Below, piece by piece: positions 16,101 to 21,456 of a stretch of 64,000 nt of DNA. Below the pieces are notes generated by a model. It worked only from the letters and a program-made list of their open reading frames with translations, was not told the DNA's origin and made no database searches. The position numbers and the translations under genes are program-made. The stretch's first letter is position 1, and the number at the start of each line of letters is the position of its first letter. Origin of the DNA: Rahnella laticis. Lineage in GTDB: Bacteria; Pseudomonadota; Gammaproteobacteria; Enterobacterales; Enterobacteriaceae. The stretch spans positions 1 to 64,000 of the forward strand of contig NZ_JADOBI010000019.1 of assembly GCF_015644585.1 (NCBI RefSeq). Reading direction: 5' to 3'.

Positions 16101-16574
16101 ATGCTCTCACTCCAACGCCTTCATCACCGACATCGGCACTTCCCGGCCTGGCTGGGTATTGTGGCGATTTTGATGTTGTTTATCGCACCGGTGGTTTCTA
16201 AATCACGGGTGGCTGAGGGTGCGCAGCACATGATGATGCCCGGAATGGTGATGTCCGATATGGACATGCCGGACGGGGAAATGGCTGACATGGCGTTGTC
16301 AGACACCGAAACATCAGGTGAACATTGCCATCCGCAAGCCTGTAAAACGGCGCAACATGACACCGTGAAAGGGTTGCTTTCCGGCGATATGAGCGATGCT
16401 GCCTGCGGTTATTGTGTGCTGCTGGCGCATTTACCGCTGCTCGGTTTACAGGCCATGCCGATGCTCTGGTCGCTGGAGCTTTCCAGCCGTGCGCCTCCGC
16501 GTTCTCTCAAACAACGTTATGTACCTTCGCTGTTCTTTACCGATTCACAACCCCGCGCTCCGCCTGTTTTCTGA
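16101..16574 (+). CDS. DUF2946-like small Met/His-rich exported protein
   Basis: A 157-residue protein with one N-terminal hydrophobic segment (about 18-34) acting as signal or anchor, then an unusually Met/Asp-rich stretch (about 43-65; runs such as MMMPGMVM and MDMPDGEMADM). CHPQAC and CGYC Cys pairs and a second hydrophobic segment follow. This layout fits the DUF2946 family, often found beside metal-related TonB receptors and PepSY proteins. The Met, His and Cys clusters suggest periplasmic copper or silver binding (inference). It probably forms an operon with the next gene. The start is uncertain because no strong ribosome site precedes 16101. Confidence 0.75.
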   Translation: MLSLQRLHHRHRHFPAWLGIVAILMLFIAPVVSKSRVAEGAQHMMMPGMVMSDMDMPDGEMADMALSDTETSGEHCHPQACKTAQHDTVKGLLSGDMSDAACGYCVLLAHLPLLGLQAMPMLWSLELSSRAPPRSLKQRYVPSLFFTDSQPRAPPVF

Positions 16575-16662
16575 TCTTCCCTTTTTAAGCCATTCCTTTT
16601 CAGGTTAACGACGATTTTTCGCCGTTAGCGATGTGCTATTTGAAATTCAGGAAATCAGATTT

Positions 16663-18141
16663 ATGAACCAGCCTGCAAATCTGCGTGCAAACGCGGGTGA
16701 AAAACTGTCTGCGCAAACCGCGTTTCTGGCCCTGCTGCGGCGGCTGCATTTTTATATTGGTCTGTTTGTCGGGCCGTTTATTTTCGTCGCTGCGCTGACC
16801 GGCACGCTGTATGTGCTGACGCCGCAGTTCGAAAATTACCTGTATGCTGACGCGCTATTCACCGATTCACAGGGTGCATCACAGCCGCTTTCACGCCAGA
16901 CAGAGGCGGCGATAAACGTGGCGGGGGTAAATCCAAAAATTTATGCCGTCAGACCCGCGCCGGAACGCGGAGATACCACGCGGGTGATGTTTTCTGATCC
17001 GCAGCTGGGCGCGTCCAAAAGCCGGGCAATATTCATCGACCCGGTGACGCTGGCGGTAAAAGGCGAAATGACAGTTTACGGAACCAGCGGGATTCTGCCG
17101 TTCCGCACCTGGCTGGATGATTTACATCGCGGGCTGTTACTGGGCGATATTGGCCGCGTGTACAGTGAACTGGCCGCCTCGTGGTTATGGGTAGCCGCGC
17201 TGGGCGGCGTCGTTCTCTGGTTCACCGGACGCAGAAAACCCCGAACGTCACGCAAGCTGAGCGAAAAAATTGAAAAGCAGCAGCGCAGCCGCCACTGGCA
17301 CAGCACGCTGGGCGTGATTCTGCTGGCCGGACTGTTGTTCTTTTCCGCGACGGGGCTGACGTGGTCGCAGTGGGCAGGGGACAATATCGGTGTCTTGCGT
17401 GCCTACATGGGCTGGATGACACCGGCGGTCAAAACCAGTTTATCTCCTGAGTTAGTGGCTGCCCCGGCAGACGAACATGCAGAACATCATGCACATATGG
17501 CCGACATGCCCGATATGCCTGGTATGGACATGTCGGGTGATGTGATGCCCGCCGCACCGGCCACTGTGGCGGTTTCCACGCTCACTTTCGATGGCGTTGT
17601 TCAGGCGGCAAGGGCGTCAGGTATTGAGGCGCACCGGATAGAAATCCGCCCGGCTTATACCGCCGGTAAAGCGTGGACGGTGACGGAAGTTGACCGCAGC
17701 TGGCCGACACAGGTTGATGCGGTTTCCGTGGATCCGGCTTCATTACAGATTACCGATCACGTGCGTTTTGCGGACTTCCCGCTGCTGGCGAAACTCACGC
17801 GCTGGGGCGTTGATGCTCACATGGGCATCCTGTTTGGCGTCTGGAATCAGGTCATTCTGGTTGCCTTTGGCACCGGGCTTTGCGCGATGATTGCTTGGGG
17901 ATACCGGTTGTGGTGGCTGCGCCGTCAGGGCGATGCCGGCAGCAGCAGCCCGGCCATCACCTTGTTGCAAACCTGGAAACGGGTGCCTTTTGCCCTGCAA
18001 TGCCCGATAGCGCTGGTCACTCTGGGTTTAGCCATTTCATTGCCGGTCATGGGCGGCAGCCTGCTGATATTCCTGATGATTGATATTGTGCGTTGGCAGC
18101 GTCAGAAAAAGGCGCTGAAAACGGCCTCAGCCCTGAGCTGA
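16663..18141 (+). CDS. PepSY-associated TM helix (PiuB-like) membrane protein with Met/His-rich insert
   Basis: A 492-residue inner-membrane protein of the PepSY_TM/PiuB group, linked to iron or copper handling and ferric-chelate reduction in some bacteria. Hydrophobic helices are at about 33-55, 178-196, 217-236 and 390-415, with two more near the C-terminus. The first has the family pattern RRLHFYIGLFVGPF. A large periplasmic loop holds a Met/His/Asp-rich tract (about 275-300; HAEHHAHMADMPDM) echoing the upstream protein. The ATG at 16663 follows CAGGAAA; a GTG at 16633 is less likely. The terminator at 18129 overlaps the gene end. Confidence 0.85.
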   Translation: MNQPANLRANAGEKLSAQTAFLALLRRLHFYIGLFVGPFIFVAALTGTLYVLTPQFENYLYADALFTDSQGASQPLSRQTEAAINVAGVNPKIYAVRPAPERGDTTRVMFSDPQLGASKSRAIFIDPVTLAVKGEMTVYGTSGILPFRTWLDDLHRGLLLGDIGRVYSELAASWLWVAALGGVVLWFTGRRKPRTSRKLSEKIEKQQRSRHWHSTLGVILLAGLLFFSATGLTWSQWAGDNIGVLRAYMGWMTPAVKTSLSPELVAAPADEHAEHHAHMADMPDMPGMDMSGDVMPAAPATVAVSTLTFDGVVQAARASGIEAHRIEIRPAYTAGKAWTVTEVDRSWPTQVDAVSVDPASLQITDHVRFADFPLLAKLTRWGVDAHMGILFGVWNQVILVAFGTGLCAMIAWGYRLWWLRRQGDAGSSSPAITLLQTWKRVPFALQCPIALVTLGLAISLPVMGGSLLIFLMIDIVRWQRQKKALKTASALS

Positions 18142-18155
18142 ATTCGGGCTTTTTT
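18129..18155 (+). terminator. terminator overlapping the PepSY gene end
   Basis: AGCCC and GGGCT form a 5-bp stem with a 12-base loop followed by five further T; the stop codon lies in the loop. It is weaker than the second terminator 16 bases on. Confidence 0.6.
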
Positions 18156-18170
18156 GAGGTGAATTCCCTT

Positions 18171-18203
18171 CCGGCACTGCAATATTTGCAGTGCCGGTTT
18201 TTT
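18171..18203 (+). terminator. strong rho-independent terminator after the PepSY gene
   Basis: CCGGCACTGCAA and TTGCAGTGCCGG form a perfect 12-bp stem with loop TAT, followed by six T. Confidence 0.92.
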
Positions 18204-18207
18204 ATTT

Positions 18208-18296
18208 GCGCGATGCCTCGGGGAAATCACTTTTGGAGTGGCAGCAATTAATTTCTTCGGGTAACGTCAGCGCATCGGATAACCGGCTTTTTTGAT
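18208..18296 (+). ncRNA. candidate structured leader RNA of the ybiR-like gene
   Basis: Between the terminator and the next gene an RNA can fold with an outer helix CGATGC (18211-18216) with GCATCG (18272-18277). Inside is a helix GAAAT (18223-18227) with ATTTC (18251-18255), enclosing a hairpin CACT (18228-18231) with AGTG (18237-18240). A CTTCGGGTAACGTC stretch is left unpaired. A short CGG/CCG hairpin and a run of T (18288-18293) follow 12 bases before the start codon. The architecture looks like a cation riboswitch or attenuator, but I cannot assign a class from memory. Confidence 0.4.
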
Positions 18297-18307
18297 TAAG
18301 AAAAACC

Positions 18308-19432
18308 ATGCTTACAACGGCTTTCAGCACAGTTTTTAAACCCTTTCTTCGCGACAGATTCTTGCATCTTCTGGTGTTGCTGGGCGTCGTCCTGACGCTC
18401 TTCCAGACTGAGAAAATCATGCAGTTTCCGCAGTTCGTCGACTGGGACACCATCATCACCTTGCTCGGCCTGCTGATGCTGACCAAAGGCGTTGAGGTCA
18501 GCGGCTACTTTGATTTTGTTGGCCGCAAGATGATTAACGCCATCGACAACGAACGCAGGCTGGCGCTGTTTCTGGTCACGGCTGCCGCCGTGCTTTCCAC
18601 CTTTATGACCAATGACGTCGCGCTGTTTATCGTGATCCCGCTGACGATTACGTTGAAAAAACTGACGTCGCTGCCGGTTACGCGGCTGATCATTTTCGAA
18701 GCACTGGCGGTGAACGCGGGCTCTTTACTGACACCGATTGGCAATCCGCAAAATATCCTTTTATGGAATAAATCCGGCCAGTCATTCCTGCATTTTATCG
18801 GGCAAATGGCTCCGCTGGCGCTGGTAACGCTGGTTGCATTGCTGATTGTCACCGGCTTTTGTTTCCCGTCGCGCAGCCTTAAAAAAACGGCGAACAATCA
18901 GGGCTATCCGTTTCAGAAACGCCTTTTAGCCAGCTGCGGTGTGTTGTATGTCGTGTTTATAGCCTGCGTGGATCTGGGGCTGGCGCTGTACGGATTGCTC
19001 GCGGTGATTTTGTGTTTTCTGCTGCTGGCGCGAAAAGTCCTGCTGCGGATCGACTGGCCGCTGATTCTGGTGTTTATCGTGATGTTTATCGATGTACGCC
19101 TGATTGTCGGTTTAGACGTTTTACAGCCGGTCTTCGCGCGCATTCACGGGCTGCCGGATTACGGACATTATTTGCTGAGCATCGGTTTATCTCAGGTGAT
19201 CAGCAACGTTCCGGCGACGATCCTGATGATCAACTATCTGCCTTCCGGCCCGTTACTCGCCTACGCCGTGAACGCCGGTGGCTTTGGTCTGGCGATGGGA
19301 TCGCTGGCTAACCTGATTGCGCTGCGTATGGCGAATGACAGAAAAATCTGGCTGAAATTCCACTTTTACTCTTTCCCGTTTCTGCTGTTCAGCGGTCTTG
19401 CCGGCTGGTTCCTGCTTCCGTTAGTCAGCTGA
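18308..19432 (+). CDS. ybiR: YbiR-like anion/ion permease (ArsB/NhaD superfamily)
   Basis: A 374-residue membrane protein with about ten hydrophobic segments, strongly resembling E. coli YbiR. It has the permease signatures TFMTNDVALFIVIPLT and AVNAGSLLTPIGNPQN, whose NPQN-type loop is typical of the ion-transporter superfamily. The substrate is unproven; in E. coli ybiR adjoins mntR, hinting at metal or anion transport. The ATG at 18308 follows AAGAAAAACC, a weak ribosome site preceded by a possible structured leader. Its end overlaps the end of the convergent MocR gene by 8 bases. E. coli carries ybiR elsewhere, so this placement is not the ancestral E. coli order. Confidence 0.85.
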   Translation: MLTTAFSTVFKPFLRDRFLHLLVLLGVVLTLFQTEKIMQFPQFVDWDTIITLLGLLMLTKGVEVSGYFDFVGRKMINAIDNERRLALFLVTAAAVLSTFMTNDVALFIVIPLTITLKKLTSLPVTRLIIFEALAVNAGSLLTPIGNPQNILLWNKSGQSFLHFIGQMAPLALVTLVALLIVTGFCFPSRSLKKTANNQGYPFQKRLLASCGVLYVVFIACVDLGLALYGLLAVILCFLLLARKVLLRIDWPLILVFIVMFIDVRLIVGLDVLQPVFARIHGLPDYGHYLLSIGLSQVISNVPATILMINYLPSGPLLAYAVNAGGFGLAMGSLANLIALRMANDRKIWLKFHFYSFPFLLFSGLAGWFLLPLVS

Positions 19433-20900
19433 GCGCGCCGGTATCGAGAGCGGCCAGCCGGTTAACGGCGAAGGTGATTTCAGCGGGCGTAAGGGCTGAA
19501 AAGCCCAGAAGCCAGCCATCACGATGCAGCGCATGCGGTTCGCTCTGATTGAGAAACAGCGGTGAGAGGCGTGGTGTTTCAACACCCGCTTTTGCGGCCA
19601 GTGCGCTGAGCCGCTGCTCTTGTCCGGCGGGCAAATGCGCCGCAAGTTGTAAGCCTCCGGCTGCAACCTGCGGGGTCAGCCAGTCAATTTTTTGCCTGAT
19701 TTGCTCCAGCAGATGATCGCGGCGGCTGTGATAAAGCTGGCGGGAAAGACGCAGGTGCGAGGCGAAATGACCGCTTTGCATAAATTCAGCGGTTACCGCC
19801 TGCATCAGCTGTGAAGAATGGCCGTCACTGACGGTGCGCAGCGTCACCATCGGTGCGACCAGTGACGGAGGCAGCACGATATAAGCCAGACGCAGCGACG
19901 GGAATAAAACCTTCGAGAAGGTGCCCAGATAAATAACCTGCTGATGCTTATCCAGCCCCTGCATGGCCGGAAGCGGGCGTCCGTCGTAATGCAGTTCGCT
20001 GTCGTAATCGTCCTCGATGATCCAGCTTTCGTGACGTCTGGCGTAATCCAGCAAATGCAGACGGCGGGGCAGACTCAGGCTTACGCCGGTCGGATAATGG
20101 TGAGAAGGCGTGAGATAGATCAGGCGCGGCGAAGGAGAGTCGGCAGCAGGATTGATGCCCTGTTCATCCACCGGTATTGCACAAAGGCGCGCACCGGCAC
20201 TGGTAAACGCATTGCGCGCTCCCGGATAACCGGGTTCCTCAAGCCAGACCGTATCGTTGGGATCAATCAGCAACATCGACAGCAGTTGCAGCGCCTGCTG
20301 GGAACTGGTGGTGATCATGATGTGATCAGCGGAACACAGTACACCGCGTGACTGTTGCAGATAACTGGCAATCGCCTCGCGAAGGGGCAAATATCCCTGC
20401 GGATCGCCATATCCCAGCAAACGTTCGCCGTGTGTACGCAGCTGTTTACCGGTGATTTGCTTCCAGATTTTCAGGGGAAACGCGCGTAAATCCGGGGAGC
20501 CTGCTGCAAAAGCCCTGGGAAATTGCGGGTCGTTACAGCCGCCGGTTGCCACAATATTCCGGCCACGTGCTGAAAGCGTGGAAAGTTTCACCGGTGCGCT
20601 GCCATTCGCACGCGGTGCGGAAGGGCGGGGAAGCGACTGGCTGACAAACGTGCCTTTTCCGGTCTGGCGCTGCAAATACCCTTCGGCCTCTATCTGCGCA
20701 TAGGCCGCTTCTACGGTAATGCGTGAGAGTTTTAAATCGGCAGCCAGCACTCGTGAAGAAGGAAGTCGCTGCCCGACGGTCAGCGCACCGGTATTAATGG
20801 CCTGCCGCAGAACTGAGCAAAGCCGGTCGCGCAGGCCGGACATTTCGGCCGCGTTTTCAAAAAGAGTAATCAGTGCTGATGGTTGGGGCAGGGTAGCCAT
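19425..20900 (-). CDS. MocR-family (GntR HTH plus aminotransferase-fold) transcriptional regulator
   Basis: PLP-dependent regulator of 491 residues. An N-terminal GntR winged helix (about 21-86; LPSSRVLAADLKLSRITVEAAY) is joined to a type-I aminotransferase-fold domain (about 130-480). The PLP lysine is visible as Lys330 in GTFSK, and the cofactor Asp/Tyr region in EDDYDSELHYDG. PdxR and GabR belong to this family. The ATG at 20900 gives the usual N-terminus; the frame also reaches 20939 inside the intergenic region. It is divergent from the rhodanese gene, its most likely target, and overlaps the ybiR-like gene end by 8 bases. Confidence 0.9.
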   Translation of the reverse strand: MATLPQPSALITLFENAAEMSGLRDRLCSVLRQAINTGALTVGQRLPSSRVLAADLKLSRITVEAAYAQIEAEGYLQRQTGKGTFVSQSLPRPSAPRANGSAPVKLSTLSARGRNIVATGGCNDPQFPRAFAAGSPDLRAFPLKIWKQITGKQLRTHGERLLGYGDPQGYLPLREAIASYLQQSRGVLCSADHIMITTSSQQALQLLSMLLIDPNDTVWLEEPGYPGARNAFTSAGARLCAIPVDEQGINPAADSPSPRLIYLTPSHHYPTGVSLSLPRRLHLLDYARRHESWIIEDDYDSELHYDGRPLPAMQGLDKHQQVIYLGTFSKVLFPSLRLAYIVLPPSLVAPMVTLRTVSDGHSSQLMQAVTAEFMQSGHFASHLRLSRQLYHSRRDHLLEQIRQKIDWLTPQVAAGGLQLAAHLPAGQEQRLSALAAKAGVETPRLSPLFLNQSEPHALHRDGWLLGFSALTPAEITFAVNRLAALDTGALS

Positions 20901-21000
20901 AATGGGTCTTATTGATAGGCGATAATTGGTATTAATCATAAGGCCAAAAACAGAGATGATGAACCTGTTTTCAACACAGTAAATTGCAGAGGAAAATTTT

Positions 21001-21456
21001 ATGTCGCAGACGTCTTATGTTCTGGCTTACGAACCGCCTTCCCCCGAAGTCAGCGCAGCCTATTTGCAGTCAAAGCTGAGCTTTTATACCGATGCCGCGG
21101 ATGTGGCAGCCGATTTACAAAATGGCGTGACCGGCATTGTGGTTATTGATACCCGTTCTGCTGAACATTATGCGCGCGGTCATGTGCCCGGTGCGGTCAG
21201 TTTTCCCCATAAAAATATGACGGCAGAAAGCACCCGTGATTTCAATAAAGACGTGGTGTATGTGACGTATTGCGACGGGATTGGCTGTAACGGTTCTACG
21301 CAGGGCGCGTACAAACTGGCGAAGCTGGGGTTCCGCGTGAAAGAAATGATCGGCGGGCTGGATTTCTGGACTCGGGACCGGCATCCGGTCGTGAAAGGCG
21401 AAGCGCGCGGAGTTTATCCGGCGGACTCCGCCCCTGAAGATTGTGGCTGTGCGTGA
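21001..21456 (+). CDS. rhodanese-domain sulfurtransferase
   Basis: Single-domain rhodanese of 151 residues. It has the DTR..EHYARGHVPGAV motif and a catalytic-loop Cys in VTYCDGIGCNG, the position that carries persulfide in this family. The C-terminus is Cys-rich (PEDCGCA). It has no signal peptide, so it is cytoplasmic. The ATG at 21001 follows AGAGGAAAA. It is divergent from a MocR-type regulator, suggesting control by a PLP- or amino-acid-linked signal (inference). The physiological sulfur donor or acceptor cannot be read from sequence. Confidence 0.9.
   Translation: MSQTSYVLAYEPPSPEVSAAYLQSKLSFYTDAADVAADLQNGVTGIVVIDTRSAEHYARGHVPGAVSFPHKNMTAESTRDFNKDVVYVTYCDGIGCNGSTQGAYKLAKLGFRVKEMIGGLDFWTRDRHPVVKGEARGVYPADSAPEDCGCA

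Follow-up and report, generated by a model that had tools for sequence, protein, structure and literature searches.

The leader of ybiR in Rahnella laticis carries two overlapping layers of conservation. The layer shared across genera consists of two short boxes at fixed spacing, attached to ybiR in different gene contexts, and this widely conserved part is most likely, as far as the sequence allows to judge, a promoter box. The second layer is an RNA hairpin that is confined to Rahnella among the genera compared. Our preferred reading, to which we give a probability of roughly 0.4, is that the boxes form a weak σ70-class core promoter of ybiR and that the hairpin belongs to transcripts entering from upstream.

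The ybiR Locus and the Loci Compared

The window is the whole stretch of 64,000 nucleotides that was analysed, and its coordinates are used throughout. The features that matter here are the following.

16633..18141, forward strand: PepSY_TM gene, 5′ of ybiR (Pfam PF03929, E 6.2e-71)
18171..18205, forward strand: strong intrinsic terminator behind the PepSY_TM gene (stem 18171-18197 and a T-run, terminator scan)
18207..18274, forward strand: sense RNA hairpin, Rahnella only among the genera compared (18207-18215/18265-18274 and 18217-18226/18252-18261; inner stem variable)
18238..18243, forward strand: box 1, GTGGCA (consensus CTGGCR), proposed −35 element (37 of 40 loci have TGG at the corresponding offset)
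18244..18261, forward strand: 18-base spacer, constant in length and variable in sequence (alignment, Fitch counts)
18262..18268, forward strand: box 2, TAACGTC, with TAACGT as proposed −10 element plus a C (29 of 40 loci carry it exactly, all 40 have TA...T)
18274, forward strand: predicted transcription start, the A after a C (placed from box 2; 34 bases before the ATG)
18308..19432, forward strand: ybiR, encoding a CitMHS-type transporter of 374 aa (Pfam PF03600, E 6.7e-43)

The ybiR gene of E. coli, annotated as 'anion transporter', is a distant DNA match of the gene at 18308-19432, and in E. coli SE15 it overlaps mntR. The genes found 5′ of ybiR vary among the 13 neighbourhoods studied (PepSY, a decarboxylase-like gene, a fabB-like gene, a divergent gene and two others; PepSY excepted, these labels were assigned by eye). 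The strong terminator that the initial annotation had placed before the leader was confirmed, and terminator-like hairpins lie 5′ of the element in all ten undeleted Rahnella loci, this one included.

Several observations on the neighbouring genes were made in passing. The region 16101-18141 encodes a PepSY_TM protein with a Met/His-rich stretch (HAEHHAHMADMPDMPGMDMSG), and the 157-aa ORF before the PepSY_TM gene is likewise rich in Met and His; such proteins near ybiR suggest a metal theme. Two genes recognized by eye at 19425-21456, one of MocR type and convergent to ybiR, the other rhodanese-like and divergent, accompany ybiR in 10 and 8 of the 13 neighbourhoods, respectively. The end of an mntR-like gene, also recognized by eye, lies directly 5′ in L015, L016 and L020.

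For the comparison, ybiR was detected at E ≤ 1e-60 in 162 of 392 family genomes, from which the best 30 loci were taken. Together with loci from two further ybiR searches, these make up the set used, 40 ybiR loci with their upstream regions, from eight genera (14 Rahnella, 6 of genus g49 and 20 others). Leaders were anchored on TAACGTC or its nearest variant; for 11 of the 40 the anchor was chosen by eye, knowing the spacing, which favours the conservation counts given below. Changes were counted on a ybiR tree of 39 loci, that is, all but L081 (in genome G410), where the ybiR match covers residues 1-110 only and an altered element (TGGT, TAACGTC) still lies upstream. Alignment A5 omits L002, which is near-identical to L001.

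Two Boxes at Fixed Spacing Are Conserved Across Eight Genera

The boxes C/GTGGCR and G-N-TAACGTC, 18 bases apart, were found 5′ of ybiR in the 40 loci. The TGGC of box 1 is present in 33 of them, the G at 18260 (position −14) in 39, and the T at 18257 (−17) is mostly conserved. Deviants are L099, which has no box 1, L076 and L078, with TAG instead of TGG, and genus g127, with TACCTTC. Fitch counts on the tree gave 0, 0, 1, 3, 3, 0 and 3 changes along TAACGTC and 1, 1, 1 and 4 at −23 to −20 from box 2, where box 1 lies; in the spacer there were about 10 per site at −15 to −6, 2 at −5 and 1 at −2. Averaged over the 39 loci, box 2 changed 1.4 times per site and positions −23 to −20 1.8 times. The upstream flank had 8.8 changes per site, the spacer 10 and the downstream flank 8.5; the first, second and third codon positions of ybiR gave 3.1, 1.4 and 8.5.

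The shared offset was also measured against shuffled sequences, using one chosen locus per genus, with L088, L095 and L101 anchored by eye. The best 4-mer at a common offset was CTGG, found in 7 of 8 genus representatives, and none of 2000 shuffle sets exceeded 3. The element patterns showed no excess elsewhere in the genomes, with 51 matches against 119 for controls in 17 genomes and, allowing up to 3 mismatches, 547 against 592 in 21 genomes. The accessible part of the literature on ybiR (mntR, promoter, transporter) and on Rahnella riboswitches yielded no description of the element, and a search for TAACGTC as a promoter motif found nothing related.

No fold common to all genera was detected around the boxes: 31 segments covering −30 to +55, a range that excludes the 5′ arm of the Rahnella hairpin, had a mean z of −0.06. 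A search for helices shared across genera found none above 20 column shuffles, a comparison whose ceiling was set by the near-invariant columns. The stems seen by eye in single genera have no common register. As a separate observation, L095 and L098 of genus g64 have the element, around TAACGTG, enclosed in a hairpin (GGGGCUGGC with CAGCCCC or GCCAGCC) in which pairs changed between two species; L098 folds unusually well (z −4.8), and L095 gave −1.8.

A Hairpin Restricted to Rahnella Among the Genera Compared

The segment 18205-18276 of the window folds with a z of −3.02 (3 of 300 shuffles as good), and the longer segment 18205-18310 with −1.64 (14 of 200). Counterparts of the shorter segment gave sense z values of −2.5 to −6.5 in nine of the ten undeleted Rahnella leaders, L014 being the exception at −0.93, and in all ten, which represent only about four lineages, the antisense strand scored weaker, as expected of an RNA stem with G-U pairs. 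For full leaders the mean z was −2.7 in the ten Rahnella loci, +0.65 in the six of g49 and +0.21 in four of g139. A real hairpin thus exists in Rahnella, if a weak one in L014, and none is present in g49 or g139.

RNAalifold on nine of the ten undeleted leaders produced a consensus of 30 pairs at −21 kcal/mol, or −30 when L014 was left out, and 15 to 19 of the 19 outer pairs form in each of nine Rahnella leaders. Covariation, by which the initial annotation had proposed to judge the fold among homologous ybiR leaders, was weak: one of the 30 pairs shows a change on both sides that keeps pairing within Rahnella, and when g49 and g139 were added (19 leaders) the consensus fell to 0 pairs. Of ten distinct 5′-arm changes six preserve the pairing, and the 3′ arm is unchanged apart from the innermost column. 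Of the 14 Rahnella loci, 13 share the block TTCTTCGGGTAACGTCAGCGCAT without any difference and L009 has two, although ybiR itself varies by up to 40% at the third positions of conserved codons (12 loci compared). The 22-base block was looked for in the 392 family genomes, and of the 30 loci inspected, six from Rahnella and two from g49 (L057 and L058) precede ybiR; the remaining matches look like coding coincidences. In L008, L009, L012 and L013, 4 of the 14 Rahnella loci, pairing between the block and the bases that precede the ATG beats 95% of shuffles; the window is not among them.

These data refine a leader that had been described as a set of nested helices. The three proposed helices are indeed complementary (CGATGC/GCATCG at 18211-18216/18272-18277, GAAAT/ATTTC at 18223-18227/18251-18255 and CACT/AGTG at 18228-18231/18237-18240); in the minimum free energy fold of 18205-18310 the two inner ones form, and the outer one is replaced by the register 18207-18215/18265-18274. 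The segment CTTCGGGTAACGTC, described as unpaired, is present, yet most of it is paired in that fold. Over 19 leaders, the 15 proposed pairs were formed in 71.9% of cells, above 500 of 500 shuffles (mean 66.2) and above all slid versions; the covariation score and the number of doubly changed cells also exceeded shuffles, and the number of doubly changed pairs did not (179 of 500). All 15 pairs form in L001, L002 and L003, and 4 to 11 of them in members of g49 and g139. As for the T-run before the start codon, six T are present at 18288-18293 and are not conserved: L001, L002 and L003 carry them and none of the other 17 of the 20 loci compared do. Runs of five T close to the ATG occur in L085 and L086, which belong to another genus, within sequence that is unrelated.

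Two further candidates were discarded. A small hairpin GCGA-N4-UCGC, considered in Rahnella, g49 and g139, was not clearly above controls; and the 72-base hairpin is not a repeated palindrome, having no second copy in its own genome, where the other match is of 23 bases (E 0.67).

A Natural Deletion Separates the Hairpin from the Boxes

Four Rahnella species (L006, L007, L009 and L010) form one clade in the tree, with support 0.976, and have lost the terminator and everything 5′ of box 1. Both boxes are retained, box 1 being CTGGAA in L006, and the PepSY_TM frame now crosses box 1, the spacer and box 2, ending in SSGNVSAF (SSRNVSEF in L009). The frame ends 16-17 bases before the ATG of ybiR (the counterpart in the window is 18120-18307), whereas in seven relatives PepSY ends 120-143 bases 5′ of box 2. 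TGGCAG occurs at the PepSY end and again in the leader, which suggests the route by which the deletion may have arisen. Since this clade lost the 5′ arm and kept the boxes, the hairpin is dispensable, and the clade is a natural experiment that separates the hairpin layer from the box layer.

A Tentative Core Promoter

A pair of boxes around a spacer that is fixed in length and free in sequence matches the plan of a promoter, and we read the element as a weak core promoter. Box 1 (18238-18243) would be the −35 element and TAACGT (18262-18267) the −10 element, 18 bp apart, from which we infer a σ70-type factor and transcription that would begin close to 18274 and leave about 34 bases of 5′ UTR. 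The three zero-change positions of box 2 (T0, A1 and T5) are the best-kept positions of σ70 −10 elements, and T-12, A-11 and T-7 are present as TA...T in 40 of 40 loci, 11 of them anchored by eye. The G two bases before the element, at −14, would be the extended −10 G. In addition, terminator-like hairpins ahead of the element in all ten undeleted Rahnella loci, together with upstream neighbours that vary, would speak for a promoter, as would the lack of a common fold around the boxes across genera and the survival of both boxes in the clade with the deletion. The element does not appear to fit the σ54, σE, σ32 or ECF classes.

As a σ70 (RpoD) core promoter, the element is typical in its two short boxes, T-12, A-11, T-7 and G-14, its 18-bp spacer and its place near the start codon. 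It is unlike one in that TAACGT and CTGGCR are poor matches to the consensus, non-consensus bases are conserved across genera, the element overlaps an RNA hairpin in Rahnella, and its start site is a predicted one. Compared with TTGACA at 18 bp, GTGGCA (the window) and CTGGCA agree at 4 of 6 positions and CTGGCG at 3 of 6, and the scan scores are weak. In that scan, made over 115 positions in each of 25 leaders with a simple σ70 matrix, box 2 scored 2.4-5.0 (0.6 in L076); it ranked first in 5 of the 25 leaders, in the top three in 13 and in the top nine in 24, and fifth in the window. Higher-scoring σ70-like sites lie upstream in L094 (at −60), L101 and L102 (at −20) and L090 (at −75), and if these were used the boxes would be within the 5′ UTR. 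C3, G4 and C6 of box 2, conserved without a σ70 reason, also count against a promoter, as do the partial dyad symmetry of the boxes and the deviants L099, L076, L078 and g127.

In Rahnella the promoter stretch would double as the 3′ arm of the RNA hairpin. As the hairpin spans the boxes, it would form only in RNA begun upstream, for example by read-through of the terminator, and any function it has would concern such transcripts. The higher stability of the sense strand suggests that the leader is transcribed, which counts against a promoter as the whole story; this bias is the strongest sign suggesting that RNA entering from upstream matters in Rahnella.

Alternative Explanations

The sense-strand bias also supports a 5′-UTR element, in which ybiR would be transcribed from upstream (by read-through or from an unseen promoter), the boxes would be a linear RNA signal, and the Rahnella hairpin would present them and tune mRNA stability or translation. 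The 30 consensus pairs, the 5′-arm changes that keep pairing, the upstream σ70-like sites of some genera and the pairing of the block with the pre-ATG bases in four Rahnella loci agree with this idea. We nevertheless consider it unlikely, if the least so of the alternatives: outside Rahnella no fold is shared, L014 folds poorly, four species have lost the 5′ arm, a single pair shows a both-sided change, an RNA signal would not usually consist of a pair of boxes around an unconstrained spacer of fixed length, and a terminator-like hairpin precedes the ten undeleted Rahnella leaders.

The boxes may instead be an operator with inverted half-sites close to TWAYGYCAG, 24 bp centre to centre, for a putative dimeric regulator of ybiR. 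The left box CTGGCRTAA and the right box TAACGTCAG are near inverted repeats, the pattern matches on both strands in L188 and L189 with up to 4 mismatches, bases dispensable for σ70 are conserved, and no excess of other copies was seen. An operator overlapping the promoter would explain both the conserved non-sigma bases and the partial dyad symmetry. Against it, no regulator-like ORF within about 6 kb is common to all 13 neighbourhoods, the MocR-type gene (by eye) reaching 10; the MocR-rhodanese intergenic region of the window has no copy; the left half-site is degenerate in Rahnella; and 24 bp does not make up complete turns of the helix. On balance the operator seems doubtful. Equally doubtful is the wider idea of one sequence used twice, namely a promoter or operator DNA box in eight genera that, in Rahnella only, would also serve as the 3′ arm of a hairpin handling upstream transcripts, one clade having dropped the RNA half by deletion and reusing the DNA half as the coding end of PepSY.

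The initial annotation had read the leader as a small-ion riboswitch or an attenuator, and this is now very improbable. The Rahnella leader does fold, and over 19 leaders the proposed helices score above shuffled and slid versions by several measures. However, the Rfam search that it had called for (Rfam 15) gave 0 matches in the window at gathering thresholds, and no alkali-metal, Mn or Mg class appeared at E ≤ 10 in the window or at E ≤ 5 in 20 leaders; all hits under these relaxed settings lay far below gathering, among them an atoC RNA with 19.9-23.9 bits against a threshold of 50 in 3 of those 20, 5′ of the boxes. The terminator scan found no terminator-like site between 18205 and 18308, the T-run is not kept, and the fold, missing in g49 and g139, has disappeared from one Rahnella clade. 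The Li+-I (nhaA-I), Li+-II (nhaA-II) and Na+-I (DUF1646) riboswitches precede cation transporter genes, according to PMC9646797. Unlike these, the ybiR leader has no match even at E ≤ 10 and its fold is not conserved outside Rahnella. The yybP-ykoY manganese riboswitch has in common a possible Mn link, through the ybiR/mntR overlap of E. coli SE15, and differs in that the leader has no match to it in the window or, at E ≤ 5, in the 20 leaders.

A coding function, either a leader peptide or an antisense peptide on the minus strand (the DALTLPEE frame), is scarcely credible: a minus-strand ORF of 94 codons covers the block in the window, minus frames are open in several loci and in four species the block really is the 3′ end of the PepSY coding sequence, but L085 has a stop in the DALTLPEE frame (by reading), conserved positions ignore codon degeneracy, and in several genera stops at both boxes interrupt the forward frames.

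Implications

The structured leader that had been proposed is real within Rahnella, as the z values and RNAalifold indicate, is confined to that genus among those compared, being absent in g49 and g139 and lost in the deletion clade, and matches no known switch. A riboswitch candidate is thereby narrowed to a testable reading, a promoter plus a hairpin, with its bases named. A private control of ybiR may hint at the condition in which the transporter is used.
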